64,000 nucleotides of DNA from Phascolarctobacterium faecium DSM 14760 (lineage in GTDB: Bacteria; Bacillota; Negativicutes; Acidaminococcales; Acidaminococcaceae), in contig NZ_QLTS01000006.1 in the NCBI RefSeq assembly GCF_003269275.1, forward strand, positions 35,386 to 99,385. The letters run 5' to 3'. Made by a program: the position numbers and the translations under genes. The notes beneath the pieces are model-generated. The model was given only the letters and a program-made list of their open reading frames with translations, did no database searches and was not told where the DNA came from. Shown here one piece after another: positions 1 to 63,341 of this stretch. Each line of letters starts with the position of its first letter. Positions within the stretch are counted from its first letter, which is position 1.

Positions 1-26
1 GAATGGCGGCTGCAGGAGGGGAATGA
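1..26 (+). CDS. 3' end of an upstream gene, probably sufC (partial)
   Basis: Only the last few codons are visible. One frame reads MAAAGGE and stops with TGA at 24-26, one base before the sufB start at 28. The identity as the SufC ATPase is inferred only from the usual sufC-sufB order. The same seven-codon tail turns up fused to the truncated permease ending at 4682, because the duplication junction lies inside it. The ribosome binding site of sufB (GGAGGGG, 15-21) sits within this tail. Confidence 0.4.
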
Positions 27-27
27 A

Positions 28-1242
28 ATGAGTGAACAGGTAAATCTGCAGGAAGCGCTGGTTAAAAAAGCTGCTTTTGGCAATGATATCGATTTGGAAA
101 AATTTGATGATAATAACGAACAGCATGTGCAAAGTACCGCCGAGCTTTCAGCAGCAGGGAAAGAACGGCTGGAGCATGTTGGTATCGATCTGGAGAGGGA
201 GAATCGCAGCGCCAGCTTTATTCAGGTCGACAATGCGCCTATTGAGGCCGAAGTAAAGCCGCAGCTGCCGCTGGAATTGATGAATACCGGCGCCGCCGCT
301 AAAAAATATCCTGAACTTGTCAAAAAATACTGGTGGAATGCCGTGAAGGCAGATACTGATAAATATACTGCTAAAACTGCATTGGAGCAGGAACAGGGAT
401 ATTTTATCAGAGTCAAAGCCGGGCAGAAGATAGAAGCTCCTCTGCAGGCCTGCGTTTTTATCGGTCACGAGGATCACCTGCAGCGTGTTCATAACATTGT
501 TATTGTAGAAGAAGGCGCTGAGCTTAATATCATCTCTGGCTGTGCCAGTGATCCCGGTGTTGAAAAAGGCGTGCATATCGGTATCAGTGAATTTTATGTT
601 GAAAAAAATGCTAAGCTGACCTTTACCATGATCCACAGCTGGGGCGAAAACATTGCTGTGCGTCCTCGCAGCGTAACGATCATCGAAGAAGGCGGCCAGT
701 TTATTTCTAATTATGTCTGCATGGAAAAAGTAAAAGATGTGCAGATGTATCCTACTACCAAGCTGGTAGGCGAAGGCGCTGTGGCACGCTTAAATTCTAT
801 TTTAGTGGCACCGGAGGGGTCGCATCTTGATATCGGCGGCAAGGCGCTGTTAGAGGTGCCTGGTACCCGTGCCGAAATCGTGACCCGTACTATTTCTACC
901 GGCGGTGAGATCATCAACCGCGGCAATCTTACAGGTCGTGCCGAAGGCATTCGTGCCCATTTGGAATGTAATGGCTTGATGCTCAGTAATAAAGGTTATA
1001 TTTCTGCCATACCTGAGCTGGATGCATTTACAGGTAATGCCGAGCTCAGCCACGAGGCTGCTGTGGGCCGCATCGCTCCTGAAGAGATCGAGTATCTGAT
1101 GGCGCGAGGAATGGACGAAGAAGAAGCTACTGCTACTATCGTCCGCGGCTTCCTCAACGTCAATATTGAAGGACTGCCGGAATCTTTGGCTAAAAAGATC
1201 AATGAAACTCTGGATACGTTCACTTATAATAAGGGAATGTAA
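28..1242 (+). CDS. sufB: SufB/SufD-family Fe-S cluster scaffold, copy 1
   Basis: This 404-residue protein is the scaffold subunit that, with the ATPase SufC, builds Fe-S clusters in the cytosol. The C-terminal half has the parallel beta-helix pattern of the family, followed by the conserved end with HEAAVGRI and then MARGMDEEEA. Cys314 in the ECNG motif is the likely cluster or sulfur ligand, by analogy with the active cysteine of E. coli SufB. At about 400 residues it is shorter than E. coli SufB (about 495) and resembles the minimal SufBC (SMS-type) systems of anaerobes. The start follows GGAGGGG by 6 bases. It is one of two near-identical copies. This one carries Asp149 and His150, where copy 2 has Glu and Gln. 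Confidence 0.9.
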   Translation: MSEQVNLQEALVKKAAFGNDIDLEKFDDNNEQHVQSTAELSAAGKERLEHVGIDLERENRSASFIQVDNAPIEAEVKPQLPLELMNTGAAAKKYPELVKKYWWNAVKADTDKYTAKTALEQEQGYFIRVKAGQKIEAPLQACVFIGHEDHLQRVHNIVIVEEGAELNIISGCASDPGVEKGVHIGISEFYVEKNAKLTFTMIHSWGENIAVRPRSVTIIEEGGQFISNYVCMEKVKDVQMYPTTKLVGEGAVARLNSILVAPEGSHLDIGGKALLEVPGTRAEIVTRTISTGGEIINRGNLTGRAEGIRAHLECNGLMLSNKGYISAIPELDAFTGNAELSHEAAVGRIAPEEIEYLMARGMDEEEATATIVRGFLNVNIEGLPESLAKKINETLDTFTYNKGM

Positions 1243-1261
1243 GAAAAAGTAAAAAAAGTAC

Positions 1262-1290
1262 TTGTCAATCGCGGCAAAGTGAGTTATAAT
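1262..1290 (+). promoter_or_regulatory. tRNA operon promoter, copy 1
   Basis: TTGTCA (1262-1267) and TATAAT (1285-1290) are separated by 17 bp. They stand about 20 bp before the tRNA-Gln gene and just after the sufB stop. This is a near-consensus housekeeping promoter. Confidence 0.8.
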
Positions 1291-1311
1291 AACCCTTGTG
1301 TTCAACACAAT

Positions 1312-1385
1312 TCCGGGATGGTGTAATGGTAGCACAGGTGATTCTGGATCATCTTGTCTGGGTTCGAGCCCTAGTCCCGGAGCCA
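1312..1385 (+). tRNA. tRNA-Gln (CTG), copy 1
   Basis: The sequence folds into a full cloverleaf. Acceptor TCCGGGA pairs with TCCCGGA, the D stem is GTGT/GCAC, and the anticodon stem GGTGA/TCATC carries the loop TTCTGGA with anticodon CTG at 1344-1346. The T arm contains GGTTCGAGCC. CCA is encoded (1383-1385). Confidence 0.92.
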
Positions 1386-1387
1386 AT

Positions 1388-1462
1388 GGCGCCATGGTCA
1401 AGCGGCTAAGACGTCGCCCTCTCAAGGCGAAATCACGAGTTCGATTCTCGTTGGCGCTACCA
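1388..1462 (+). tRNA. tRNA-Glu (CTC), copy 1
   Basis: The cloverleaf has acceptor GGCGCCA pairing with TGGCGCT (one G-U pair) and an anticodon stem TCGCC/GGCGA enclosing CTCTCAA, giving anticodon CTC. The T arm is ACGAG-TTCGATT-CTCGT and CCA is encoded. The gene lies two bases after tRNA-Gln, so the two are co-transcribed. An isoacceptor with TTC must exist elsewhere in the genome. Confidence 0.92.
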
Positions 1463-1472
1463 AACTGACAGT

Positions 1473-1507
1473 AAACCCTCTGACTTAGGTCAGAGGGTTT
1501 TTATTTT
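1473..1507 (+). terminator. Terminator of tRNA operon, copy 1
   Basis: A perfect 12-bp stem (AAACCCTCTGAC with GTCAGAGGGTTT), a TTAG loop and a following T-rich run TTTATTTT. Confidence 0.92.
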
Positions 1508-1527
1508 GGAATAGGTTTTTCATAAAC

Positions 1528-1563
1528 TGTATTGTTACAATACACCCTAAACTATTATATAAT
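1528..1563 (+). promoter_or_regulatory. merR promoter with palindromic operator, copy 1
   Basis: The perfect inverted repeat TGTATTGTTACAATACA (1528-1544, 7-bp arms, TTA centre) overlaps a likely -35, TTACAA (1535-1540). The -10 TATAAT lies 17 bp downstream (1558-1563). A regulator bound here would cover the -35, which fits autorepression. The same motif, slightly degenerate, lies in the lpdC promoter at 2450-2466. Confidence 0.75.
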
Positions 1564-1590
1564 ATAAAAAAATGGGGTGAGGTGGTCTTG

Positions 1591-2421
1591 ATGAGCACTT
1601 ATATTTCTATAAGCGAAATGGCAAAACTGCACGGAATTACCAGACAGACCCTTATTCATTACGATAATATTGATTTATTTAAGCCGGCGAAGGTCGATAC
1701 CAACGGTTACCGTTATTATTGTAAACACCAGATACCATATTTACGAGAGATTTGTTTCCTTAAATCGTTGGGAATCCGTCTGAAAGATATCCAACAGCAT
1801 TTTCAGGAACGGACGCCGGAAAACGAAATGTATCTTTTGGAGAAACAAAAACAGTATATTATGAATCAAATTGCCAAGCTCAATACTTTGCGCGAATACC
1901 TAAATCAAAGGATCGATCTGTATGAAGAAGCCGTAGATGCAGGGATGATGAGGATGTCGCTGCCTTTTGTACGCTATATAGATGCACGTCAGGCGATTTT
2001 TAAAGAGTGGCTGCAGCCTATTGATAAAGATAACCTGCACACGACATTAATGGATTTGTGGCAGCGTATCTTTGAACGTGAAATGGTTCCGTCAGGCGGT
2101 TTTGGTTCTATCATCAAAAAGTCTGGTGTGGAAAAAAATAAGTGGCTTCAGGGAGCCGGGTCCTGTATATTTTTGCCGGTATGGAACAAGGAGCACGAAA
2201 ATACACTTACGATACCGGCCGGAGAATATGTGTGCATGTATAAGTATGGTATGCCTTATGATACTGAGCATCTGGAAAAGCTGATGCAGTGGCTGGCTAA
2301 AAATAATTATGAACTGGCAGGGGATATCATCGACGTGTGTCTGCTTGATACTACCTTTTATAAGCAGGAAACAGGCGTAGATTTCTGTATGCTGCAGGCT
2401 CCTGTTACCTTAAAAAAATAA
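1591..2421 (+). CDS. MerR-family ligand-responsive regulator, copy 1
   Basis: This 276-residue protein has an N-terminal MerR winged helix-turn-helix (ISEMAKLHGITRQTLIHYD, with YRYY in the wing). A dimerising coiled coil follows at about residues 70-115, then a C-terminal domain resembling the GyrI/BmrR effector-binding fold. No metal-binding cysteine set is seen, so it probably senses a small organic ligand. ATG 1591 is chosen over GTG 1582 because the GGGGTGAGG ribosome binding site ends 8 bases before 1591 and overlaps 1582. The gene precedes lpdC on the same strand, and both promoters carry the same operator. It is therefore the likely activator of the decarboxylase operon, with the aromatic acid as a plausible inducer (inference). 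Confidence 0.85.
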   Translation: MSTYISISEMAKLHGITRQTLIHYDNIDLFKPAKVDTNGYRYYCKHQIPYLREICFLKSLGIRLKDIQQHFQERTPENEMYLLEKQKQYIMNQIAKLNTLREYLNQRIDLYEEAVDAGMMRMSLPFVRYIDARQAIFKEWLQPIDKDNLHTTLMDLWQRIFEREMVPSGGFGSIIKKSGVEKNKWLQGAGSCIFLPVWNKEHENTLTIPAGEYVCMYKYGMPYDTEHLEKLMQWLAKNNYELAGDIIDVCLLDTTFYKQETGVDFCMLQAPVTLKK

Positions 2422-2444
2422 ATAAAAATTTTTTTAAAAACCTC

Positions 2445-2475
2445 TTGACTGTATTGTTACACCACAATCTATTAT
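2445..2475 (+). promoter_or_regulatory. MerR-type promoter of lpdC, 19-bp spacer, copy 1
   Basis: TTGACT (2445-2450) and TATTAT (2470-2475) are 19 bp apart, the overlong spacing that MerR-family activators correct by twisting DNA. The operator TGTATTGTTACACCACA fills the spacer (2450-2466) and matches 15 of 17 positions of the palindrome in front of the merR gene. Confidence 0.8.
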
Positions 2476-2520
2476 CAAATTGTGAGGTAACACTCAACAA
2501 AAAGTCAGGAGGTTATTTTT

Positions 2521-4005
2521 ATGACTAAAGAAGTTATTGATTTAAGATCTGCGTTGGAATTACTGGAAAGCATTCCCGGACAAATGGTACATACTGATGT
2601 AGAGGTTGACCCTTCTGCAGAACTGGCTGGCGTTTATCGTTATGTGGGTGCAGGCGGCACTGTTGCCCGTCCTACTAAAACAGGGCCGGCTATGACTTTT
2701 GAAAATGTGAAAGGACACCCAGGTGCAAAAGTAGTTATTGGTTTATTAGCCAGCCGTAAACGTGTAGGCTATCTTTTGAATAGTAAACCTGAAAAATTAG
2801 GTTTTATGATGCGTGACGCTGTAAAAAATGCTATTGCTCCAGTGGTCGTTGATAAAGCGAAAGCTCAATGCCAGGAAGTCGTGCATCTGGCTACTGACGA
2901 AGGCTTTGATATCCGTAAATTGATCCCGGCTCCTACCAATACTCCGGAAGATGCAGGACCGTATGTAACTTTAGGTATGTGCTATGCTTCCGATGTCGAA
3001 ACCGGTGAATCTGACGTTACGATCCATAGACTTTGCCTGCAGAGCAAAGACGAAATTTCCATGTTTTTCACACCGGGGGCCCGGCATTTGGGCGCTTTCC
3101 GTGAAAAGGCCGAAGCTTTAGGCAAACCGCTGCCAATTTCCATCAGTATCGGTGTCGATCCGGCTATTGAGATCGCTTCCTGCTTTGAGCCGCCGACAAC
3201 TCCGCTTGGCTTCAATGAATTATCTATTGCCGGAGCAATCCGCGGTAAGGCTGTTGAATTAGCTCCCTGTGTGACGATCGATGAAAAATGTATCGCCAAC
3301 GCCGAATACGTCATTGAAGGCGAGCTTTTGGTAGGCGCGCGCGTTCGCGAGGACCAGAATTCCAATACCGGTAAAGCGATGCCGGAATTTCCCGGTTATA
3401 CCGGGCCTGCCAATGCAGAATTACCTGTTATCAAAGTAAAAGCTGTTACTCACAGAGTAAATCCGATTATGCAAACCTGCATTGGACCTTCCGAAGAGCA
3501 TGTAAGCATGGCCGGTATCCCGACTGAGGCGTCGATCCTTGATATGGTGGAAAGAGCTATGCCGGGCCGTGTACAAAATGTTTATGCACATTCCTCCGGC
3601 GGCGGTAAATTTATTGCCGTTATCCAGTTCAAAAAGACCGTTCCAAGTGACGAGGGTCGTCAGCGTCAGGCTGCGCTGCTTGCTTTCTCTGCTTTCCCGG
3701 AATTGAAGCAGGTGATTTTAGTTGATGAAGATGTCGATATTTTTGATACTAACGATGTGCTATGGGCGATGACTACCAGGATGCAGGCCGATGTCGATAT
3801 CGTAACAATCCCCGGCGTACGCTGCCATCCGCTTGATCCGTCTAATGATCCTGCCTGCAGCTGGTCGATCCGCGATCATGGTATTGCCTGCAAAACTATT
3901 TATGACGCGACAATTCCGTTTAATCAGAAAGCAAGATTCCAACGCGCAAAATTTATGGAAGTCGATGTAAAAAAATTCTTGCCTGATTTTACCGTACAGG
4001 ATTGA
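2521..4005 (+). CDS. lpdC: LpdC-like (UbiD-family) hydroxybenzoate decarboxylase, copy 1
   Basis: This 494-residue UbiD-family enzyme would catalyse reversible non-oxidative decarboxylation of an aromatic acid using prenylated FMN. From memory it is very close to Lactobacillus gallate decarboxylase LpdC: the DVEVDP-AEL-GVYRY-GAGGTV start, the DEGFDIRKL-APTNTP block and the SEEHVSMAGIPTEASIL block all match. Arg170 (VTIHR) corresponds to the cofactor-binding arginine. Glu233 (FNEL) sits where the metal-ligand glutamate is, and Glu262/Glu266 (AEYVIEG) lie where catalytic glutamates are found. The start follows CAGGAGG. The partners LpdB and LpdD follow only the second copy. Gallate or protocatechuate is the best substrate guess, not proven. 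Confidence 0.87.
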   Translation: MTKEVIDLRSALELLESIPGQMVHTDVEVDPSAELAGVYRYVGAGGTVARPTKTGPAMTFENVKGHPGAKVVIGLLASRKRVGYLLNSKPEKLGFMMRDAVKNAIAPVVVDKAKAQCQEVVHLATDEGFDIRKLIPAPTNTPEDAGPYVTLGMCYASDVETGESDVTIHRLCLQSKDEISMFFTPGARHLGAFREKAEALGKPLPISISIGVDPAIEIASCFEPPTTPLGFNELSIAGAIRGKAVELAPCVTIDEKCIANAEYVIEGELLVGARVREDQNSNTGKAMPEFPGYTGPANAELPVIKVKAVTHRVNPIMQTCIGPSEEHVSMAGIPTEASILDMVERAMPGRVQNVYAHSSGGGKFIAVIQFKKTVPSDEGRQRQAALLAFSAFPELKQVILVDEDVDIFDTNDVLWAMTTRMQADVDIVTIPGVRCHPLDPSNDPACSWSIRDHGIACKTIYDATIPFNQKARFQRAKFMEVDVKKFLPDFTVQD

Positions 4006-4015
4006 ATGATTCTGC

Positions 4016-4044
4016 TGGTTAAGGCGTTTTAAACGCCTTAACCA
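4016..4044 (+). promoter_or_regulatory. Intercistronic 14-bp palindrome, copy 1
   Basis: TGGTTAAGGCGTTT and its exact reverse complement are separated by one T. No T-run follows, so it is not a typical terminator. It may be an RNA-stabilising or processing hairpin that sets the ratio of decarboxylase to permease. Confidence 0.6.
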
Positions 4045-4085
4045 CATTATCTGACTTTGATTGGATATTTTTAAGGAGGACAATT

Positions 4086-4682
4086 ATGGGAAAGAATAAA
4101 CCGATTATAGGTTTTATTTTAGGTATCATCGTAGCTGTGGTCATCTTTTTTGCTAACATTCCCGGCTTGGAACGCACAGGACAGATGTGTATGGCCTTTT
4201 CTCTGATGACAGTGATTTTCTGGGCTTTTGGTATTGCTCAGCCCGGTTATGTCTCAGGTCTGTATCTTTTGCTTTTAGCAGTTTTTAAAGTTGCGCCAAC
4301 AACATTGATTTTTTCTACCTGGACTACTTCTATGATGTATCTGATCATCGGCGCTTATCTTATTGCGGTGGCGGTGAAAGAATCAGGTTTAGGTGAGAGG
4401 ATCGCTTATAAGTTCATCGTAAAATATGTTTCGTCTTTTAAAAGTATTATCGTTTCTATCTTTGCTCTGACGTTCATTCTGGCCTTATTGATTCCGCATC
4501 CCTGGCCGCGCGCTTTTCTCATTATGTCGGTCATGGCTGTTGTGGTAAAAAGCGCGGACATTCCCCGTGAAGACGCGGTTAAGATCGGTTTTACTGTTTT
4601 TACGGCTTCTATCCCGGTTTCCATGATCTTTCTGACTGGTGATGCGTCGATCAATCCACTGGCGGCTGCAGGAGGGGAATGA
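4086..4682 (+). pseudogene. Truncated DASS-type permease fused to foreign tail
   Basis: The first 195 codons are identical to the intact permease at 8742, after which the duplication junction replaces the rest with GGE and a stop (TGA 4680-4682). About five of the dozen expected membrane segments remain, and the second half of the transport core is lost, so it cannot be a working transporter. Its AGGAGG ribosome binding site is intact, so a membrane fragment could still be made. The stop overlaps the ribosome binding region of sufB copy 2, so translation may be coupled. Confidence 0.9.
4660..4669 (+). repeat. Microhomology at duplication junction
   Basis: TGGCGGCTGC here joins permease codons (left) to the sufC-sufB boundary (right). 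The same 10-mer lies at 4-13 and 9316-9325 in the two parental contexts, so the exact crossover cannot be placed within it. Confidence 0.9.
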
Positions 4683-4683
4683 A

Positions 4684-5898
4684 ATGAGTGAACAGGTAAA
4701 TCTGCAGGAAGCGCTGGTTAAAAAAGCTGCTTTTGGCAATGATATCGATTTGGAAAAATTTGATGATAATAACGAACAGCATGTGCAAAGTACCGCCGAG
4801 CTTTCAGCAGCAGGGAAAGAACGGCTGGAGCATGTTGGTATCGATCTGGAGAGGGAGAATCGCAGCGCCAGCTTTATTCAGGTCGACAATGCGCCTATTG
4901 AGGCCGAAGTAAAGCCGCAGCTGCCGCTGGAATTGATGAATACCGGCGCCGCCGCTAAAAAATATCCTGAACTTGTCAAAAAATACTGGTGGAATGCCGT
5001 GAAGGCAGATACTGATAAATATACTGCTAAAACTGCATTGGAGCAGGAACAGGGATATTTTATCAGAGTCAAAGCCGGGCAGAAGATAGAAGCTCCGCTG
5101 CAGGCCTGCGTTTTTATCGGTCACGAGGAGCAGCTGCAGCGTGTTCATAACATTGTTATTGTAGAAGAAGGCGCTGAGCTTAATATCATCTCTGGCTGTG
5201 CCAGTGATCCCGGTGTTGAAAAAGGCGTGCATATCGGTATCAGTGAATTTTATGTTGAAAAAAATGCTAAGCTGACCTTTACCATGATCCACAGCTGGGG
5301 CGAAAACATTGCTGTGCGTCCTCGCAGCGTAACGATCATCGAAGAAGGCGGCCAGTTTATTTCTAATTATGTCTGCATGGAAAAAGTAAAAGATGTGCAG
5401 ATGTATCCTACTACCAAGCTGGTAGGCGAAGGCGCTGTGGCACGCTTAAATTCTATTTTAGTGGCACCGGAGGGGTCGCATCTTGATATCGGCGGCAAGG
5501 CGCTGTTAGAGGTGCCTGGTACCCGTGCCGAAATCGTGACCCGTACTATTTCTACCGGCGGTGAGATCATCAACCGCGGCAATCTTACAGGTCGTGCCGA
5601 AGGCATTCGTGCCCATTTGGAATGTAATGGCTTGATGCTCAGTAATAAAGGTTATATTTCTGCCATACCTGAGCTGGATGCATTTACAGGTAATGCCGAG
5701 CTCAGCCACGAGGCTGCTGTGGGCCGCATCGCTCCTGAAGAGATCGAGTATCTGATGGCGCGAGGAATGGACGAAGAAGAAGCTACTGCTACTATCGTCC
5801 GCGGCTTCCTCAACGTCAATATTGAAGGACTGCCGGAATCTTTGGCTAAAAAGATCAATGAAACTCTGGATACGTTCACTTATAATAAGGGAATGTAA
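4684..5898 (+). CDS. sufB: SufB/SufD-family Fe-S cluster scaffold, copy 2
   Basis: This copy is identical to the gene at 28 except for a silent change in codon 138 and two amino-acid changes, Glu149 and Gln150 in place of Asp and His. The start is ATG 4684 behind the same GGAGGGG, although the open frame extends back to 4639. Unlike copy 1 it is not preceded by its presumed partner gene. It follows lpdC copy 1 and the permease fragment with no terminator between, so the MerR-controlled promoter at 2445 should read into it. Confidence 0.9.
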   Translation: MSEQVNLQEALVKKAAFGNDIDLEKFDDNNEQHVQSTAELSAAGKERLEHVGIDLERENRSASFIQVDNAPIEAEVKPQLPLELMNTGAAAKKYPELVKKYWWNAVKADTDKYTAKTALEQEQGYFIRVKAGQKIEAPLQACVFIGHEEQLQRVHNIVIVEEGAELNIISGCASDPGVEKGVHIGISEFYVEKNAKLTFTMIHSWGENIAVRPRSVTIIEEGGQFISNYVCMEKVKDVQMYPTTKLVGEGAVARLNSILVAPEGSHLDIGGKALLEVPGTRAEIVTRTISTGGEIINRGNLTGRAEGIRAHLECNGLMLSNKGYISAIPELDAFTGNAELSHEAAVGRIAPEEIEYLMARGMDEEEATATIVRGFLNVNIEGLPESLAKKINETLDTFTYNKGM

Positions 5899-5917
5899 GA
5901 AAAAGTAAAAAAAGTAC

Positions 5918-5946
5918 TTGTCAATCGCGGCAAAGTGAGTTATAAT
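5918..5946 (+). promoter_or_regulatory. tRNA operon promoter, copy 2
   Basis: TTGTCA-17-TATAAT, identical to the promoter at 1262. Confidence 0.8.
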
Positions 5947-5967
5947 AACCCTTGTGTTCAACACAAT

Positions 5968-6041
5968 TCCGGGATGGTGTAATGGTAGCACAGGTGATTC
6001 TGGATCATCTTGTCTGGGTTCGAGCCCTAGTCCCGGAGCCA
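5968..6041 (+). tRNA. tRNA-Gln (CTG), copy 2
   Basis: Identical to the tRNA at 1312, with the same cloverleaf, anticodon CTG and encoded CCA. Confidence 0.92.
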
Positions 6042-6043
6042 AT

Positions 6044-6118
6044 GGCGCCATGGTCAAGCGGCTAAGACGTCGCCCTCTCAAGGCGAAATCACGAGTTCGA
6101 TTCTCGTTGGCGCTACCA
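6044..6118 (+). tRNA. tRNA-Glu (CTC), copy 2
   Basis: Identical to the tRNA at 1388, with anticodon CTC and encoded CCA. Confidence 0.92.
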
Positions 6119-6128
6119 AACTGACAGT

Positions 6129-6163
6129 AAACCCTCTGACTTAGGTCAGAGGGTTTTTATTTT
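6129..6163 (+). terminator. Terminator of tRNA operon, copy 2
   Basis: Same 12-bp stem and T-rich run as at 1473. It should also stop transcripts that enter from the lpdC copy 1 promoter. Confidence 0.92.
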
Positions 6164-6183
6164 GGAATAGGTTTTTCATAAAC

Positions 6184-6219
6184 TGTATTGTTACAATACA
6201 CCCTAAACTATTATATAAT
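6184..6219 (+). promoter_or_regulatory. merR promoter with palindromic operator, copy 2
   Basis: Palindrome TGTATTGTTACAATACA at 6184-6200 over TTACAA-17-TATAAT, identical to copy 1. Confidence 0.75.
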
Positions 6220-6246
6220 ATAAAAAAATGGGGTGAGGTGGTCTTG

Positions 6247-7077
6247 ATGAGCACTTATATTTCTATAAGCGAAATGGCAAAACTGCACGGAATTACCAGA
6301 CAGACCCTTATTCATTACGATAATATTGATTTATTTAAGCCGGCGAAGGTCGATACCAACGGTTACCGTTATTATTGTAAACACCAGATACCATATTTAC
6401 GAGAGATTTGTTTCCTTAAATCGTTGGGAATCCGTCTGAAAGATATCCAACAGCATTTTCAGGAACGGACGCCGGAAAACGAAATGTATCTTTTGGAGAA
6501 ACAAAAACAGTATATTATGAATCAAATTGCCAAGCTCAATACTTTGCGCGAATACCTAAATCAAAGGATCGATCTGTATGAAGAAGCCGTAGATGCAGGG
6601 ATGATGAGGATGTCGCTGCCTTTTGTACGCTATATAGATGCACGTCAGGCGATTTTTAAAGAGTGGCTGCAGCCTATTGATAAAGATAACCTGCACACGA
6701 CATTAATGGATTTGTGGCAGCGTATCTTTGAACGTGAAATGGTTCCGTCAGGCGGTTTTGGTTCTATCATCAAAAAGTCTGGTGTGGAAAAAAATAAGTG
6801 GCTTCAGGGAGCCGGGTCCTGTATATTTTTGCCGGTATGGAACAAGGAGCACGAAAATACACTTACGATACCGGCCGGAGAATATGTGTGCATGTATAAG
6901 TATGGTATGCCTTATGATACTGAGCATCTGGAAAAGCTGATGCAGTGGCTGGCTAAAAATAATTATGAACTGGCAGGGGATATCATCGACGTGTGTCTGC
7001 TTGATACTACCTTTTATAAGCAGGAAACAGGCGTAGATTTCTGTATGCTGCAGGCTCCTGTTACCTTAAAAAAATAA
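6247..7077 (+). CDS. MerR-family ligand-responsive regulator, copy 2
   Basis: Identical in protein sequence to the regulator at 1591 (276 residues: MerR helix-turn-helix, coiled coil, GyrI/BmrR-like effector domain). The start ATG 6247 is chosen for its spacing from GGGGTGAGG. With two intact copies the cell may carry more regulator per operator set, but it also has two sets of operators. Confidence 0.85.
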   Translation: MSTYISISEMAKLHGITRQTLIHYDNIDLFKPAKVDTNGYRYYCKHQIPYLREICFLKSLGIRLKDIQQHFQERTPENEMYLLEKQKQYIMNQIAKLNTLREYLNQRIDLYEEAVDAGMMRMSLPFVRYIDARQAIFKEWLQPIDKDNLHTTLMDLWQRIFEREMVPSGGFGSIIKKSGVEKNKWLQGAGSCIFLPVWNKEHENTLTIPAGEYVCMYKYGMPYDTEHLEKLMQWLAKNNYELAGDIIDVCLLDTTFYKQETGVDFCMLQAPVTLKK

Positions 7078-7100
7078 ATAAAAATTTTTTTAAAAACCTC

Positions 7101-7131
7101 TTGACTGTATTGTTACACCACAATCTATTAT
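7101..7131 (+). promoter_or_regulatory. MerR-type promoter of lpdC, copy 2
   Basis: TTGACT-19-TATTAT with operator 7106-7122 in the spacer, identical to copy 1. This copy drives the complete lpdC-permease-lpdB-lpdD operon. Confidence 0.8.
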
Positions 7132-7176
7132 CAAATTGTGAGGTAACACTCAACAAAAAGTCAGGAGGTTATTTTT

Positions 7177-8661
7177 ATGACTAAAGAAGTTATTGATTTA
7201 AGATCTGCGTTGGAATTACTGGAAAGCATTCCCGGACAAATGGTACATACTGATGTAGAGGTTGACCCTTCTGCAGAACTGGCTGGCGTTTATCGTTATG
7301 TGGGTGCAGGCGGCACTGTTGCCCGTCCTACTAAAACAGGGCCGGCTATGACTTTTGAAAATGTGAAAGGACACCCAGGTGCAAAAGTAGTTATTGGTTT
7401 ATTAGCCAGCCGTAAACGTGTAGGCTATCTTTTGAATAGTAAACCTGAAAAATTAGGTTTTATGATGCGTGACGCTGTAAAAAATGCTATTGCTCCAGTG
7501 GTCGTTGATAAAGCGAAAGCTCAATGCCAGGAAGTCGTGCATCTGGCTACTGACGAAGGCTTTGATATCCGTAAATTGATCCCGGCTCCTACCAATACTC
7601 CGGAAGATGCAGGACCGTATGTAACTTTAGGTATGTGCTATGCTTCCGATGTCGAAACCGGTGAATCTGACGTTACGATCCATAGACTTTGCCTGCAGAG
7701 CAAAGACGAAATTTCCATGTTTTTCACACCGGGGGCCCGGCATTTGGGCGCTTTCCGTGAAAAGGCCGAAGCTTTAGGCAAACCGCTGCCAATTTCCATC
7801 AGTATCGGTGTCGATCCGGCTATTGAGATCGCTTCCTGCTTTGAGCCGCCGACAACTCCGCTTGGCTTCAATGAATTATCTATTGCCGGAGCAATCCGCG
7901 GTAAGGCTGTTGAATTAGCTCCCTGTGTGACGATCGATGAAAAATGTATCGCCAACGCCGAATACGTCATTGAAGGCGAGCTTTTGGTAGGCGCGCGCGT
8001 TCGCGAGGACCAGAATTCCAATACCGGTAAAGCGATGCCGGAATTTCCCGGTTATACCGGGCCTGCCAATGCAGAATTACCTGTTATCAAAGTAAAAGCT
8101 GTTACTCACAGAGTAAATCCGATTATGCAAACCTGCATTGGACCTTCCGAAGAGCATGTAAGCATGGCCGGTATCCCGACTGAGGCGTCGATCCTTGATA
8201 TGGTGGAAAGAGCTATGCCGGGCCGTGTACAAAATGTTTATGCACATTCCTCCGGCGGCGGTAAATTTATTGCCGTTATCCAGTTCAAAAAGACCGTTCC
8301 AAGTGACGAGGGTCGTCAGCGTCAGGCTGCGCTGCTTGCTTTCTCTGCTTTCCCGGAATTGAAGCAGGTGATTTTAGTTGATGAAGATGTCGATATTTTT
8401 GATACTAACGATGTGCTATGGGCGATGACTACCAGGATGCAGGCCGATGTCGATATCGTAACAATCCCCGGCGTACGCTGCCATCCGCTTGATCCGTCTA
8501 ATGATCCTGCCTGCAGCTGGTCGATCCGCGATCATGGTATTGCCTGCAAAACTATTTATGACGCGACAATTCCGTTTAATCAGAAAGCAAGATTCCAACG
8601 CGCAAAATTTATGGAAGTCGATGTAAAAAAATTCTTGCCTGATTTTACCGTACAGGATTGA
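7177..8661 (+). CDS. lpdC: LpdC-like (UbiD-family) hydroxybenzoate decarboxylase, copy 2
   Basis: Identical in protein sequence to the gene at 2521 (494 residues). This copy sits in the complete operon: it is followed by the intact DASS permease, the LpdB-like flavin prenyltransferase that would make its prFMN cofactor, and the LpdD-like protein. It is the original arrangement. The catalytic features are Arg170, Glu233, Glu262 and Glu266, as in copy 1. Confidence 0.87.
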   Translation: MTKEVIDLRSALELLESIPGQMVHTDVEVDPSAELAGVYRYVGAGGTVARPTKTGPAMTFENVKGHPGAKVVIGLLASRKRVGYLLNSKPEKLGFMMRDAVKNAIAPVVVDKAKAQCQEVVHLATDEGFDIRKLIPAPTNTPEDAGPYVTLGMCYASDVETGESDVTIHRLCLQSKDEISMFFTPGARHLGAFREKAEALGKPLPISISIGVDPAIEIASCFEPPTTPLGFNELSIAGAIRGKAVELAPCVTIDEKCIANAEYVIEGELLVGARVREDQNSNTGKAMPEFPGYTGPANAELPVIKVKAVTHRVNPIMQTCIGPSEEHVSMAGIPTEASILDMVERAMPGRVQNVYAHSSGGGKFIAVIQFKKTVPSDEGRQRQAALLAFSAFPELKQVILVDEDVDIFDTNDVLWAMTTRMQADVDIVTIPGVRCHPLDPSNDPACSWSIRDHGIACKTIYDATIPFNQKARFQRAKFMEVDVKKFLPDFTVQD

Positions 8662-8671
8662 ATGATTCTGC

Positions 8672-8700
8672 TGGTTAAGGCGTTTTAAACGCCTTAACCA
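8672..8700 (+). promoter_or_regulatory. Intercistronic 14-bp palindrome, copy 2
   Basis: Same perfect inverted repeat as at 4016, in the 80-bp gap between lpdC and the permease. No T-run follows. Confidence 0.6.
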
Positions 8701-8741
8701 CATTATCTGACTTTGATTGGATATTTTTAAGGAGGACAATT

Positions 8742-10127
8742 ATGGGAAAGAATAAACCGATTATAGGTTTTATTTTAGGTATCATCGTAGCTGTGGTCAT
8801 CTTTTTTGCTAACATTCCCGGCTTGGAACGCACAGGACAGATGTGTATGGCCTTTTCTCTGATGACAGTGATTTTCTGGGCTTTTGGTATTGCTCAGCCC
8901 GGTTATGTCTCAGGTCTGTATCTTTTGCTTTTAGCAGTTTTTAAAGTTGCGCCAACAACATTGATTTTTTCTACCTGGACTACTTCTATGATGTATCTGA
9001 TCATCGGCGCTTATCTTATTGCGGTGGCGGTGAAAGAATCAGGTTTAGGTGAGAGGATCGCTTATAAGTTCATCGTAAAATATGTTTCGTCTTTTAAAAG
9101 TATTATCGTTTCTATCTTTGCTCTGACGTTCATTCTGGCCTTATTGATTCCGCATCCCTGGCCGCGCGCTTTTCTCATTATGTCGGTCATGGCTGTTGTG
9201 GTAAAAAGCGCGGACATTCCCCGTGAAGACGCGGTTAAGATCGGTTTTACTGTTTTTACGGCTTCTATCCCGGTTTCCATGATCTTTCTGACTGGTGATG
9301 CGTCGATCAATCCACTGGCGGCTGCCAGCTGTGACCCGGAACCGGTAGGCTGGCTCAAATGGTTCGAAGTTATGGGTCTGCCAATGATCGTTACCAGTAT
9401 CATTACAATGGTTATGATACTGTTTATGTTCAAGCCAACCAAAGAGGTCAATGTCAATAAAACTGAAATTTTAGAGAAGCTGGAAGCTATGGGACCGATG
9501 AGCGGCAAAGAATTACGTACTGCCGTTTGGGTAACACTGGCTATTATCCTCTGGATGACTGACACGCTGCATGGCATTGATATTGGCTGGGTAACGTTAT
9601 TTATTGCTATGGGGATGGCAATGCCTAAGATCGGCGGCATTTTGACTCCGCAAAGCTGGAGTGGTGTACCGGTACAAACACTGATCTTTTTGACAGCTGC
9701 TGTCGCTATTGGCCGTGTGGGCGGTGCTACAGGCATGAATACATGGATAGCGCAAACTGTATTGCCAAGCAGTGTGCCGGAAAATATGTTCATCCTGGCC
9801 GCATTTATTACAGCCGTTTCTATTGCTATCCATATGCTGTTCGGCAGCGTTATCGCAGTTATGGGGATCGTTATCCCGGCGATGCTGGCCTTTACGGGCT
9901 CAATGGGTATCAGTACGATCATTCCTGTTATGATTGCCTATATTGCTATCAACGCTCACTTTATACTGCCATTCCATAATCTGGCGATTTTGGTCGGCGT
10001 AGGTGAAGACAACGGTATGTATACGGAAAAAGAAACGATCAAATTCGGTGTACCGTTTACGATCGTGCTGTTCATTATTACTGTCGGCGTTGCTGTACCC
10101 TGGTGGAAAGTAATCGGTCTGTGGTGA
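8742..10127 (+). CDS. DASS (SLC13-like) anion permease, intact
   Basis: This 461-residue polytopic membrane protein has about a dozen hydrophobic segments and resembles the divalent anion:Na+ symporter family. The two places where that family normally shows its SNT-type substrate and sodium signature instead read TGDASINP (about 186-193) and LPFHNLAI (about 414-421). It is therefore a divergent member, and its substrate may not be a plain dicarboxylate. The lpd context suggests uptake of an aromatic acid or exchange with the decarboxylated phenol (inference). It starts after AAGGAGG and ends 38 bp before lpdB. Known gallate operons in lactobacilli use a different permease, GacP. Confidence 0.82.
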   Translation: MGKNKPIIGFILGIIVAVVIFFANIPGLERTGQMCMAFSLMTVIFWAFGIAQPGYVSGLYLLLLAVFKVAPTTLIFSTWTTSMMYLIIGAYLIAVAVKESGLGERIAYKFIVKYVSSFKSIIVSIFALTFILALLIPHPWPRAFLIMSVMAVVVKSADIPREDAVKIGFTVFTASIPVSMIFLTGDASINPLAAASCDPEPVGWLKWFEVMGLPMIVTSIITMVMILFMFKPTKEVNVNKTEILEKLEAMGPMSGKELRTAVWVTLAIILWMTDTLHGIDIGWVTLFIAMGMAMPKIGGILTPQSWSGVPVQTLIFLTAAVAIGRVGGATGMNTWIAQTVLPSSVPENMFILAAFITAVSIAIHMLFGSVIAVMGIVIPAMLAFTGSMGISTIIPVMIAYIAINAHFILPFHNLAILVGVGEDNGMYTEKETIKFGVPFTIVLFIITVGVAVPWWKVIGLW

Positions 10128-23486: not shown

Positions 23487-23734
23487 TACAACTCAGGTCT
23501 GTGGTTGCAAGTCGAGGCCAGTTGCGGGCAAAACGATCCACGTAAGCAATCAAAGTATTGTGAGCACGGCGCAGCTTAGAAGTAAGTCCTGCCGCAAAGG
23601 CGAGAGGGGTAGTAGTGGGGAGCTCTGAAAAGCTTATGAGCGAACCCTCCAGCAGGCGAGTGTGGGGGCGAAAACCAGGTCAGCTGAGTTGTCTGTGAAA
23701 TTTGTACCGTTATTAAAAATAACGGTATTTTTTT
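23487..23734 (+). ncRNA. Structured RNA of unassigned family (6S-like size)
   Basis: This segment is GC-richer than its surroundings, has no reading frame, and is bracketed by its own promoter and terminator. CAACTCAG at the 5' end pairs with CTGAGTTG (about 23683-23691), closing a body of about 200 nt. CTG-T-GGTT then pairs with AACC-AGGT-CAG, and inner helices CCTGC/GCAGG and GAGGG/CCCTC are visible. I do not recognise the sequence as lysine, cobalamin, SAM, TPP, glycine or FMN riboswitch, RNase P, SRP RNA or tmRNA. 6S RNA fits by length and long closing stem but is unproven. A riboswitch for the downstream amino-acid binding protein is the main alternative. Confidence 0.55.
23705..23734 (+). 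terminator. Terminator of the structured RNA
   Basis: TACCGTTATT pairs with AATAACGGTA around an AAA loop and is followed by seven T's. Confidence 0.92.
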
Positions 23735-55575: not shown

Positions 55576-55800
55576 TGGTTACAAGGACGTGCCGCGTGGG
55601 ACAAGCCAAGCCTGCGCGGCATGTTGTGTGCTCAGCATACACTTGTTACCATAAGCGCAAGTGCCGCCTTTGGCGGCAGACGAGGGAGAGGTTTATCGAT
55701 CAGTCAGCGGGTACCTCTCGGCTAGCTGCAGGCCGTAAGCAGACTACAAATTCCGGCGGTAACGACGGTGACAAAATGTCTGTGGCAGAATTGGCAATAT
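55576..55800 (+). ncRNA. glmS ribozyme-riboswitch with extra 5' stem
   Basis: The conserved core is clear: AGCGC at 55654-55658 with the expected self-cleavage before G55655. Then GGGAGAGGTTTATCGAT, GCGGGTACCTCTCGGCT, GGCCGTAAG and the 3' pseudoknot part with GGCGGTAACGACGGTGAC follow. Glucosamine 6-phosphate is the cofactor, and cleavage destabilises the mRNA, closing the feedback loop on GlmS. Upstream of the cleavage site GGTTACAAG can pair with CTTGTTACC (one mismatch), enclosing a GC-rich GTGCCGCG/CGCGGCAT stem. This gives an additional folded leader that would be the 5' product. Confidence 0.93.
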
Positions 55801-57787: not shown

Positions 57788-58195
57788 ATGAACAATTCTG
57801 TTGCTTTATTATATAATTTCAATGAAGAAAAGTTAAAAATGATTAAAATGGTCTGTATGATGATGCAGGTGAGGTTTAAAGAGGTTGCAAGAGCAGAGTA
57901 TGAGCAGCCGCTGGGAGCTTTATTGGGAATTTCTGGAATAGAAAATCACGGAGAAGTTTATCAGGGGGAAGAATTTCAGGAAGAAATGTTGGTGCTGCAT
58001 GGATTTGACGGCAGCAAGTTACAAAAATTTTTAATTGCTTTGCAGCGTGTAGGGGTAGGAAGAATAGAGTTAAAAGCGATGATTACGGAAAATAATAAAA
58101 GTTGGAATGGCCTGGCTTTATATGAGGAACTTTGCCAGGAAAGAGAAGCTTTTAAGAAGATGGAAGCTGAAAGACGTAATAAAGTACAAAAGTAA
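57788..58195 (+). CDS. DUF3783 protein
   Basis: This 135-residue cytosolic protein has, in its middle and C-terminal part (about 65-120), the DUF3783 pattern: a LVLHGF opening, a helix, then ELKAMITENNKSWNGLALYEEL. The function is unknown. A charged C-terminal helix follows. The start follows AAAAGGAG. It is a single-gene unit with its own terminator, and TATAAT near 57743 is a likely -10. Confidence 0.75.
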   Translation: MNNSVALLYNFNEEKLKMIKMVCMMMQVRFKEVARAEYEQPLGALLGISGIENHGEVYQGEEFQEEMLVLHGFDGSKLQKFLIALQRVGVGRIELKAMITENNKSWNGLALYEELCQEREAFKKMEAERRNKVQK

Positions 58196-58229
58196 AAGTA
58201 AAACCGCGGTTTACCGCGGTTTTACTTTT
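58194..58229. terminator. Bidirectional terminator
   Basis: AAAAGTAAAACCGCGG pairs with its complement around TTTA, between converging genes. It overlaps both gene ends. Confidence 0.9.
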
Positions 58230-59094
58230 TTTCTAAAATATTTTCAGAAATTATACAAGCTAAAATTATTACAGCTCCGCTCATACCTGTAAAAGTTAAT
58301 TTTTCATTAAGTAAAAAGTATGAGGCCGCAGCAGTTAAAATAGGTTGAGTACATTGCAGCATTGATACTAAGGAGGAAGATAAGAATTTCAAGGCAGCGT
58401 TTTGCAGAAAATAAGCCAGGCAGGTACATGTAATAGCCAGATAGATAACAACAGCCCAGGCTTCTGGTTGAATTTTAGTGATAGTGCTGATATCGTCGAA
58501 TAATAAAGCTCCTGCGATGCTGATAACTGCCGTAATAAAGGTTTGAATAGCAGAAATAGTGATAGCATCTGTTGCTTTCAGAGATTTTTCTCCAAAGACC
58601 AGTGCTCCTGCGACGCTGACTGCTGTAAGCAATGCCCATAAATCTCCCTGGTTAAAAGAAAACGTTCCTCCATTACTACAGAGTAGATACATACCGAGAA
58701 TGACTAATAGTTGTATAGGAAGATGTGAAATTTTATAAGGTCGCTGTAAGACTATTATTGACAAAAGCGGTGCGAAAATTACTGATAAGGACATAATAAA
58801 GCCAACATTCGTTGCCGTAGTTCCTTCTAATGCCAGATTACATGAAATATAAGCTGAAGCCATACATAATCCTGCTGGCAGATATTGGCTTGCAGAAAGT
58901 GCCTGCAGCTGTTTCCTTAAGCGTGTTGCAAAGAAAATTGCGAAGAGAGAAAAAGCCAGACCAAAACGAAAGGCCAGACACCATAAAGGTGTGATACTGG
59001 CAAAAGCAATTTTAGTGAGTGGATTACCTAAGCCGTATAGAAAACTTTGCAACAATATGAAAATGATATATTTATTATGTGAATTGTTTATCAT
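58222..59094 (-). CDS. EamA/DMT-family transporter
   Basis: This 290-residue inner-membrane protein has ten hydrophobic segments in two homologous EamA halves. It is a drug/metabolite-type exporter of unknown substrate; members export amino acids, nucleobases or drugs. The start at 59094 (MINNSHNKY) is set by AAGGAGAACG directly upstream, though the frame is open to 59112. It lies 89 bp downstream of the ABC-F gene on the same strand. Confidence 0.85.
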   Translation of the reverse strand: MINNSHNKYIIFILLQSFLYGLGNPLTKIAFASITPLWCLAFRFGLAFSLFAIFFATRLRKQLQALSASQYLPAGLCMASAYISCNLALEGTTATNVGFIMSLSVIFAPLLSIIVLQRPYKISHLPIQLLVILGMYLLCSNGGTFSFNQGDLWALLTAVSVAGALVFGEKSLKATDAITISAIQTFITAVISIAGALLFDDISTITKIQPEAWAVVIYLAITCTCLAYFLQNAALKFLSSSLVSMLQCTQPILTAAASYFLLNEKLTFTGMSGAVIILACIISENILEKK

Positions 59095-59183
59095 CGTTCT
59101 CCTTGAATACAAATTGCAAAATAAAATACATTGTGAGTTATATTTTAACAGCTAAATTCGACTAATGCAAACTATTTTGTAAA

Positions 59184-60773: not shown

Positions 60774-60800
60774 ATAATTTCAACTCCTAACTTTCGAAGA

Positions 60801-60837
60801 CAATAAAAACCTCCCGATTCAAGACAGAATGGGAGGT
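60801..60837 (-). terminator. Leader terminator of ABC-F gene
   Basis: On the minus strand ACCTCCC-ATTC pairs with GAAT-C-GGGAGGT and is followed by TTTTTATT, about 30 bases before the ABC-F start. A terminator inside a 5' leader implies regulated readthrough. Confidence 0.88.
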
Positions 60838-61005
60838 GTAAAGGTAGACTTAGCCTCAAATCGCAGAAAATGATCCATTCTGACTTACTGATAAAAGACA
60901 ACACTTAACAAAGCTTTTGGTTTTAAGCTGTTTTTGTGTCTTTTTCAGATAAGGTGCGAAATTGGATCAGTTTTTCATTCGTTCAAGTGTCCTTTCAATA
61001 TTCAT
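60825..61005 (-). promoter_or_regulatory. Ribosome-mediated attenuation leader of ABC-F gene
   Basis: The transcript contains a leader frame MNIERTLERMKN (61005-60967), or only MKN from 60978 behind GAAAGGA. Its stop lies in TGATCC (60969-60964). TGATCC can pair with GGATCA (60876-60871). GGATCA adjoins CAGAATGG (60882-60875), which can pair with CCATTCTG (60832-60825), the 5' arm of the terminator. A ribosome stalled at the leader stop would release CAGAATGG to form the antiterminator and switch on the ABC-F gene. This is inferred from base pairing only. Confidence 0.7.
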
Positions 61006-61017
61006 AATTATATTTTT

Positions 61018-61046
61018 ATAATATAGGATTATAAAATCTTTGTCAA
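61018..61046 (-). promoter_or_regulatory. Promoter of ABC-F leader
   Basis: On the minus strand TTGACA (61046-61041) and TATTAT (61023-61018) are 17 bp apart. It begins directly after the stop codon of the radical SAM gene. Confidence 0.85.
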
Positions 61047-61943
61047 CTAAACTCCAGTCCCATCAAAGATGGGAATAAAATCAGCGCTGGCAGCGGTATC
61101 TTCCTGAACAAAGCCGTCTTCAATACCGGAATTGAAAAGGTACTGCTCAACTTTTTGATATTCTTCTGCAGTAACAACACGGTTTATTTCAGGGTATTCA
61201 GCGGCTCGGCCGCATGGAATATATTGATGCATCAGACTAAACAGGACCTGCCCCGGTTCAAAATTGTCAGCGATCCAGTCTATTACTCTTAGTGTATTTT
61301 CTAACATATTCGGTAACAGCAGATGCCTGATAATTACACCACTTTTTAATAAACCATTTTCATCGATTTGGTAGGGCCCGACTTGTTTGTACATGGTTTT
61401 TATGGCCGTTGTAGCAGTATTAAAATAATTAGGCGCATTACTGTACTTTATTGCGGCTAAATCGTCACTATATTTTAGATCGGGAAGCCATATTTGTATT
61501 TTATTTTTCAATCTGTGTATTGTATCGACAGTTTCAAAACCACTGGTATTATAAATTACAGGGACTGGCAATGGTTCCTGTAAGCTTGCGATAATAGTCT
61601 CAGTAAAATGTGTTGCTGTAACTAAATTGATATTATGGGCTCCTTGTTTAATTAAGTCAAAATAAATTTCTTTTAATCTTTCAACGGATATTTCCTGTCC
61701 TTTATTTAAACAGCTGATTTCGTAATTTTGGCAGAATGCACAATGTAAATTGCAGCCACTAAAAAAAACAGTGCCTGAACCTTTGGTGCCGCTTATGCAT
61801 GGCTCTTCCCACATATGCAGTGCCGCACGGGCAACTATTGGCTGCATACCGCAGCCGCAGGAACCGAAAATACCATTTGGACTGTTCATTGTTTCTGCCC
61901 TGTCAACTCCGCAGCGGTGTGGGCAGACGTAACAGTAAGTCAT
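61047..61943 (-). CDS. PflX-type radical SAM protein
   Basis: This 298-residue protein belongs to the PflA-like radical SAM group known as PflX (COG1313). The cluster-binding motif is CNLHCAFC (C-X3-C-X2-C, near 63-70). An N-terminal cysteine-rich segment (CYVCPHRCGV, then CGCG) may hold a second metal site. The substrate is unknown, and no glycyl-radical enzyme lies nearby. ATG 61943 is preferred because AAAGGAGATG lies just upstream; the frame is open to 61982. Confidence 0.85.
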   Translation of the reverse strand: MTYCYVCPHRCGVDRAETMNSPNGIFGSCGCGMQPIVARAALHMWEEPCISGTKGSGTVFFSGCNLHCAFCQNYEISCLNKGQEISVERLKEIYFDLIKQGAHNINLVTATHFTETIIASLQEPLPVPVIYNTSGFETVDTIHRLKNKIQIWLPDLKYSDDLAAIKYSNAPNYFNTATTAIKTMYKQVGPYQIDENGLLKSGVIIRHLLLPNMLENTLRVIDWIADNFEPGQVLFSLMHQYIPCGRAAEYPEINRVVTAEEYQKVEQYLFNSGIEDGFVQEDTAASADFIPIFDGTGV

Positions 61944-62041: not shown

Positions 62042-62145
62042 GCAGAAGTAGGTCATATAACTGACGGAAGTGGATTAACCACGTGGAGTATGACCGGTGT
62101 TGCCGACCGTCTGGGCGTTTTACCCCAGAAGTGTCGGTTTTTTTA
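62042..62145 (+). ncRNA. ZTP (pfl) riboswitch with terminator
   Basis: The RNA has the two-part pfl layout: a first stem-loop with AAGTGGATTAACCACGTGGAG, then a linker and the conserved GCCGACCGTCTGGGC element. The latter also forms the terminator stem: CCGAC/GTCGG outside, CTGGG/CCCAG inside, then a T7 run at 62138. Binding of ZTP/ZMP, which builds up when formyl-folate is short, should prevent termination. The downstream gene uses ZMP (AICAR) and formyl-folate, so the logic fits. Confidence 0.9.
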
Positions 62146-62168: not shown

Positions 62169-63341
62169 GTGAAAGAGCTGCTATTGAAGTATGGCTGTAA
62201 TCCAAATCAAAGTAAGGCGCGTATTTATAGTAAAATAGGTGAACTGCCAATTGAGGTTTTGAACGGCCGCCCTGGTTATATTAATTTTCTGGATGCCTTT
62301 AACAGCTGGCAGTTAGTAAAAGAATTAAAGGAAGCTACCGGCCTGCCTGCAGCAGCATCTTTTAAACATGTAAGTCCAGCCGGTGCTGCCGTTGGATTGC
62401 CGATGAGCGATGTACTGAAAAAAATATATTATGTTGACGATCTAGCTCTGACTCCGTTGGCTACTGCTTATGCCAGGGCTCGGGGTGCTGACCGTATGTC
62501 ATCTTACGGAGACTTTGTCGCTTTATCAGATATCTGTGACAAGGAGACTGCAGCTATGCTGGCTCGAGAAGTTTCAGATGGCGTTATTGCCCCCGGCTAT
62601 ACAGAGGAAGCTTTGGAAATTTTAAAAACTAAACGTAAGGGCACTTATAATATTATCAAAATTGATCCGTCTTATATTCCAGAGATACAGGAAACGAAAG
62701 ATGTATTTGGTATAACTTTTGAACAGGACCGTAATGAGGCTAAAATTACGTCAGAGCTGCTTGTAAATCGTCCGACTGTCAATAAAGAAATTCCTGAGGA
62801 TGCAGTACGTGATCTTCTGATTGCGTTGATTACTTTGAAATACACGCAATCGAATTCCGTCTGCTATGTTAAAGATGGACAGGCGATTGGTATTGGTGCG
62901 GGGCAACAGTCTCGTGTTCATTGTACAAGGCTTGCCGGAAATAAAGCTGATAACTGGTGGCTGCGCCAGAACCCCAGTGTTTTAGAACTGCCTTTTAAGG
63001 ACAGTATTCGACGTCCTGATCGGGACAATACTATTGATGTGTATATTTCTGACGATTATGAAGATATACTTGCAGATGGAATTTGGGAACAGTTCTTTAC
63101 CGAAAAACCAGCTCCGCTGACACGTGAAGAAAAAAAAGTATGGCTTCATAAGCTGCACGGAGTTTCTCTTGGCAGTGATGCTTTTTTCCCGTTTGGTGAT
63201 AATATTGAACGCGCTCACCGCAGCGGTGTAGATTATATTGCTCAGGCAGGCGGAAGTATCAGAGATGATAATGTTATTGAAACATGTGATAAATATAATA
63301 TCGCAATGGCATTTACTGGTTTACGTTTGTTCCATCATTAA
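62169..63341 (+). CDS. AICAR transformylase, single-domain form
   Basis: This 390-residue protein corresponds to only the formyltransferase half of PurH. It has the catalytic Lys-His in SFKHVSPAGAAVG (near 64-76), KYTQSNSV (near 224-231) and GAGQQSRVHCTRLAG (near 245-259), plus the C-terminal QAGGSIRDD. It lacks the N-terminal IMP cyclohydrolase domain, so IMP closure must be done by another protein. The start follows AAGGAGG. Expression is set by the ZTP riboswitch. Confidence 0.9.
   Translation: MKELLLKYGCNPNQSKARIYSKIGELPIEVLNGRPGYINFLDAFNSWQLVKELKEATGLPAAASFKHVSPAGAAVGLPMSDVLKKIYYVDDLALTPLATAYARARGADRMSSYGDFVALSDICDKETAAMLAREVSDGVIAPGYTEEALEILKTKRKGTYNIIKIDPSYIPEIQETKDVFGITFEQDRNEAKITSELLVNRPTVNKEIPEDAVRDLLIALITLKYTQSNSVCYVKDGQAIGIGAGQQSRVHCTRLAGNKADNWWLRQNPSVLELPFKDSIRRPDRDNTIDVYISDDYEDILADGIWEQFFTEKPAPLTREEKKVWLHKLHGVSLGSDAFFPFGDNIERAHRSGVDYIAQAGGSIRDDNVIETCDKYNIAMAFTGLRLFHH

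Follow-up and report, generated by a model that had tools for sequence, protein, structure and literature searches.

The ABC-F gene described here lies in a 64-kb stretch of DNA (the window) and is very probably an acquired Vga-like ribosome-protection gene under the control of its original ribosome-sensing transcription attenuator, as predicted from sequence comparison and RNA folding. Within this model, we infer the drug sensing, the transcription start, the kinetics, the resistance spectrum, and the co-induction of a neighboring EamA-family transporter gene.

In the proposed mechanism, transcription would start near 61011. Without drug, ribosomes would quickly complete a Met-Lys-Asn frame, and TGATCC would then pair with GGATCA to form P1, the anti-antiterminator. 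P1 would hold CAGAATGG off the terminator, so that the terminator hairpin would form and RNA polymerase would stop near 60805. A ribosome stalled by a drug on the start codon or immediately past it would cover TGATCC and prevent P1 from forming; lincosamides, pleuromutilins, and streptogramin A are the expected stalling drugs. With P1 blocked, CAGAATGG would pair with CCATTCTG before the 3' arm of the terminator is made, and the polymerase would continue into the ABC-F gene and perhaps into EamA.

The Leader of the ABC-F Gene

The leader comprises 239 nt of the minus strand (61012-60774), in the gap that separates a radical-SAM gene (stop at 61047) from the ABC-F start (60773). The initial annotation had proposed that a consensus promoter, a short leader frame, a terminator, and competing helices fit together here, and all of these elements were found on the minus strand (Table 1), with transcription predicted to start at about 61010-61012. 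The locus might instead be an unregulated gene beside an incidental hairpin, a notion favored by the ease with which AT-rich DNA yields promoter-like and hairpin-like sites (a promoter scan found 12 promoter-like sites, and 9.2 were expected). We regard this as extremely improbable, because the leader arrangement is more than chance. The fold of the 206-nt leader RNA had a z score of -4.03, and none of 200 shuffles was as stable. When the frame and the terminator were kept fixed and the 118-nt stretch between them was shuffled, a 6-nt P1 complement with an adjoining 8-nt antiterminator complement arose in 14 of 20,000 dinucleotide shuffles (0.0007; 0.07%). The orthologous anatomy of 35 leaders, described below, also argues against a chance arrangement.

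Table 1. Predicted features of the ABC-F locus in the window
Feature	Position	Strand	Basis or remark
Promoter TTGACA-17-TATTAT	61018..61046	-	11/12 consensus matches; directly after the radical-SAM gene stop (gene end 61047)
Longer in-frame ATG version MNIERTLERMKN, 12 codons	60967..61005	-	start ~5-7 nt from predicted transcription start; no Shine-Dalgarno sequence
Shine-Dalgarno sequence GAAAGGA of the sensing frame	60990..60996	-	11 nt before ATG 60978; homologues have AAAGGGTGA at the equivalent place
Sensing frame ATG AAA AAC TGA (Met-Lys-Asn)	60967..60978	-	sequence; identical in L086; M-K-[Y/F/N] in most relatives
P1 (anti-antiterminator) 5' arm TGATCC	60964..60969	-	overlaps the stop of the sensing frame
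Central hairpin closing the P1 loop	60884..60953	-	RNA folds
Antiterminator 5' arm CAGAATGG	60875..60882	-	overlaps the P1 3' arm
P1 3' arm GGATCA	60871..60876	-	sequence, alignment, folds
Antiterminator 3' arm CCATTCTG	60825..60832	-	inside the terminator 5' arm
Intrinsic terminator hairpin and T-run, ACCTCCCATTC-TGTCTT-GAATCGGGAGGT + T5	60805..60837	-	about -16 kcal/mol
Vga-like ribosome-protection ABC-F gene, 529 aa	59184..60773	-	Shine-Dalgarno sequence AGGAG at 60784-60788
EamA-family transporter gene	58222..59112	-	PF00892, 125 bits; same acquired segment
Terminator-like hairpin after EamA, strong, 16 bp	58194..58229	-	also faces the convergent DUF3783 gene

An Rfam scan of the 64-kb window found two ordinary RNA regulators, a ZTP riboswitch (62047-62123) before the gene at 62169 and a glmS ribozyme (55643-55794) before glmS. 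The window also contains a raiA RNA (23488-23692, 194 bits) and a tandem duplication of ~4.66 kb (1-4669 and 4657-9325, of which 4192 bp are exact) that includes several genes and two tRNA genes and is either a recent duplication or an assembly artefact. When sequences from several related genomes (L098, L099, L101, L106, and L111) were aligned to the radical-SAM gene beside the leader, each alignment contained one in-frame stop.

The ABC-F Protein

The gene had been likened to vga-type resistance genes. The Vga-like character of the protein was borne out, although it did not reach the curated NCBI cut-off for Vga: the Vga family NF000170 (NCBIfam) was the best-scoring family, at 611 bits against a cut-off of 725. 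The score for the ribosomal protection-like ABC-F family NF000355 (NCBIfam), 441 bits, is above the curated cut-off of 380. The best solved relative is a lincosamide-streptogramin A resistance protein (7nhl, E 5e-142); among plasmid proteins, Vga(C) and Vga(A) come closest, with 45-47% identity. The closest chromosomal relatives are ~50% identical and come from the order of genome G436, which we take to be Bacillales on the strength of the Vga-type plasmid kin. The fold of the protein is given by these relatives and by the structures solved for Vga-type proteins. A first search for relatives returned distant ABC-F proteins only, and protein-pattern scans of genome contigs and viral contigs found no close relative. 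In a tree, the protein grouped with Vga(A), Vga(C), and the Bacillales relatives (support 100/95), apart from the Vga/CplR-like genes of the window's own class; its end branch is long (1.29), and its exact place in the tree is unsure. We predict that it is a Vga-like ribosome-protection protein.

The Probable Sensing Frame

A short uORF with a Shine-Dalgarno sequence lies ahead of the P1 arm, as in vga-type attenuators. Two versions of the frame, for which the initial annotation named a stop but no start, can be read, as ATG 60978 is nested in frame within a 12-codon frame and the stop codon is common to both. The better candidate for sensing is, most probably, the nested Met-Lys-Asn frame, because GAAAGGA precedes its ATG and the short frame is conserved in homologues. 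The 12-codon frame was set aside; its start lies almost at the predicted transcription start, and it has no Shine-Dalgarno sequence. In the homologous leaders, the short frame occupies the same place and reads M-K-Y, M-K-F, M-K-N, M-W-N, M-I-N, or M-R-N, among others, followed by TAATCC, and L086 carries the identical frame ATGAAAAACTGATCC with its TGA stop. Published sensing frames of three codons include MIN, MDN, MDK, and MRK for vmlR (PMC9226507), MR[I/M] for cplR, and MK[L/Q] for vmlR2 (PMC10201436).

A different attenuator lies upstream of the ABC-F gene in L037-L047, which are Vga/CplR-like loci from other families of the window's class. Met-Arg-Asn is the sensing frame in L037-L040. 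Others have sensing frames of two codons, either ATG CGC TAA for Met-Arg (for example, L041, L043-L045, and L047) or Met-Ile (L046), which are shorter than those published (PMC9226507; PMC10201436). In this type, masking the frame draws the middle arm away from it and towards the terminator. Three further class relatives (L048, L049, and L051) have a third leader type, with a frame that starts M-Y-Y-I-F, before a more distant ABC-F gene, and each of these loci has a match to the Rfam family sRNA_1300.

Alternative Helices and Their Conservation

P1, the antiterminator, and the terminator are mutually exclusive, as in vga-type attenuators. The leader stop lies within TGATCC, whose partner is GGATCA, and CAGAATGG is complementary to CCATTCTG in the terminator arm, both as proposed in the initial annotation. 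The further proposal that GGATCA adjoins CAGAATGG was right about their neighborhood, but the two do more than adjoin, as they share two Gs (60882-60875 versus 60876-60871). The terminator stem has a bulge, and a simple terminator scanner missed it. The Vga leaders have a terminator at the same place with the same sequence, CCTCC[T/C]ATTCTG.

We found 35 Vga-like ABC-F genes whose leaders have the same order of uORF, P1, antiterminator, and terminator. Of these, 31 are chromosomal; the other four are Vga(A), Vga(C), and plasmid genes from Staphylococcus saprophyticus and Jeotgalibaca. Conservation of the pairings in homologues had been named beforehand as a check, and it was found: over 32 distinct rows, 95% of the cells in P1 and 98% of those in the antiterminator are paired, and changes in homologues are compensated. 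When the partner strand was slid by 1-4 positions as a control, 23-51% of the cells were paired. The helix strands are nearly invariant, and hence there are few compensatory changes. L070 has one base changed in all three strands and keeps both helices. P1 of the window has a G-C pair where the family has A-U, and its antiterminator also has G-C for the family's A-U, provided that one deleted base is placed accordingly. The resemblance to vga-type leaders suggested at the outset is therefore one of direct homology, given the shared anatomy and the compensated pairings.

The antiterminator of the window leader has 8 contiguous pairs versus ~10 in the relatives, its P1 is shorter, and no close orthologue was found among the leaders compared. 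A covariance model (R1) built from the other Vga-like leaders, with the window excluded, had its best match in the 64 kb at this leader, over the full length and in the right place, at a weak score (16.9 bits, E 0.21; by arithmetic, E is ~0.0004 if the search is restricted to the 239-nt leader strand). An R1 search of the genome for a second copy of the attenuator returned only a chance-level match (17.2 bits, E 6.5), and the window leader was not listed either. No Rfam family covers the window leader or the leaders of its homologues.

Control might also be mainly translational, by sequestration of the Shine-Dalgarno sequence. In the Bacillales relatives, the terminator is followed by GTCTCC...GGAGATGA, a potential sequestering element for the Shine-Dalgarno sequence of the ABC-F gene, and such an extra layer has been described for vmlR (PMC9226507) and cplR (PMC10201436). 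In the window, however, the corresponding hairpin is only CTTC/GGAG (-2.4 kcal/mol), and the terminator with its T-run is strong. We consider mainly translational control very improbable.

In Silico Switching

We folded the leader with and without a mimic of a stalled ribosome, in which bases -15 to +16 around ATG 60978 were masked. In unmasked nascent RNA with its 3' end in the loop of the terminator, the probability of P1 was 0.99 and that of the antiterminator was 0; in the masked RNA, P1 fell to 0 and the antiterminator rose to 0.99. The relatives behaved similarly: the antiterminator formed in 34 of the 35 masked leaders, and P1 was dominant in 32 of the 35 when they were unmasked. Once the terminator of the window leader is complete, it beats the antiterminator at equilibrium even when the frame is masked (0.98), and the terminator likewise wins, masked or not, in 31 of the 35 relatives. 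By analogy with established attenuation, the predicted switch would therefore have to be kinetic, with the decision made co-transcriptionally, in the window leader as in almost all of its relatives.

The dominance of the terminator at equilibrium, together with the shortened antiterminator and the weak R1 score, would also fit an inherited vga-type leader that has decayed to constitutive termination or a fixed leak, with no real drug control. Against such decay, the uORF, the position of its Shine-Dalgarno sequence, P1, the antiterminator, and the terminator are all intact despite the large divergence of the protein (50% identity), the changed pairs are compensated rather than disrupted, and switching in silico is as sharp as in the relatives. 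We thus judge a decayed leader to be improbable, and favor a working attenuator.

A Probably Acquired Segment and the EamA Gene

In the window, EamA, the ABC-F gene, and the leader lie between a DUF3783 gene and the radical-SAM gene. In four related genomes (L098-L101), these two flanking genes are adjacent, with neither the ABC-F gene nor EamA between them, and the same ABC-F gene is absent from the 58 family genomes searched. The segment has a G+C content of 0.34-0.37 versus 0.42 for the 64-kb window. As the site filled by the ABC-F gene, the leader, and EamA is empty in relatives, the simplest reading of the sequences is that all three arrived in one horizontal acquisition.

EamA had been placed 89 bp downstream of the ABC-F gene as a possibly co-induced exporter. 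That distance holds for the ATG start (89 nt after the ABC-F stop); a TTG start gives 71 nt. Between the two genes, we found no terminator and only a promoter-like site matching at 9 of 12 positions, of a kind expected by chance. Co-transcription and co-induction of the two genes are plausible, and the basis for co-induction consists of co-acquisition and the lack of an intergenic terminator. The relatives of EamA, in two family genomes, are only 36-37% identical, and this EamA was not found beside homologous ABC-F genes within the locus stretches examined, so there is no indication that EamA belongs to the system. The fuller proposal, in which promoter, attenuator, ABC-F gene, and EamA moved as one unit and the attenuator drives a two-gene operon, such that stalling would co-induce target protection and an exporter, is possible but rather doubtful.

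LpxC is a feature of diderm bacteria. The host genome has LpxC, and we infer that the host is a Negativicutes-like diderm Firmicute.

Comparison with Known Attenuators

The mechanism is already established, and what is new is the host and the acquisition. A resistance gene and its own RNA drug sensor would have traveled together and persisted in a diderm, LpxC-bearing Firmicute. An incomplete search of the open-access literature, at the level of abstracts, found no description of such a leader in Negativicutes.

The design has been proven for the vmlR leader of Bacillus subtilis, which has a three-codon uORF (MIN) in an anti-antiterminator stem, an antiterminator, and an intrinsic terminator (PMC9226507), and this design is common to the window leader. 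The vmlR protein belongs to another ABC-F subfamily, ARE2 (PMC10201436), unlike the Vga-like protein of the window, and its leader has a Shine-Dalgarno-sequestering hairpin, which is weak in the window, and NusG-dependent pausing (PMC9226507). The design has also been proven for the cplR leader, with the uORF MRI (PMC10201436). The leaders of cplR (Clostridioides difficile) and Lmo0919/VgaL (Listeria, L063) resemble that of the window in their short uORF (MRI; MKF in L063), alternative helices, and terminator. In both, however, the terminator abuts the gene start, whereas that of the window lies ~30 nt upstream of the start codon, and the L063 protein is 36% identical to the window ABC-F.

Within the window's own class, the L037-L047 leaders share the order of uORF, P1, antiterminator, and terminator, and masking shifts the pairing of their middle arm. 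They differ from the window leader in sequence, in their frames (MR, MI, or MRN), and in belonging to a separate protein clade. The 35 leaders and this class-specific two-codon type provide concrete, testable rules for the form of a sensing frame.

Staphylococcal plasmids carry vga(A) and vga(C) behind leaders (L061; L059 and L094) in which a three-codon frame (MIN, MKY) ends at the P1 arm, as in the window, and the antiterminator and terminator strings and their order are the same, with proteins that are 45-47% identical. Attenuation of vga(A) is reported to have been described by Vimberg in 2020 (cited in PMC9226507). The window leader differs from these in its MKN frame with a TGA stop, its shorter antiterminator, and its central hairpin, and, unlike its plasmid counterparts, it is chromosomal and resides in a diderm Firmicute.
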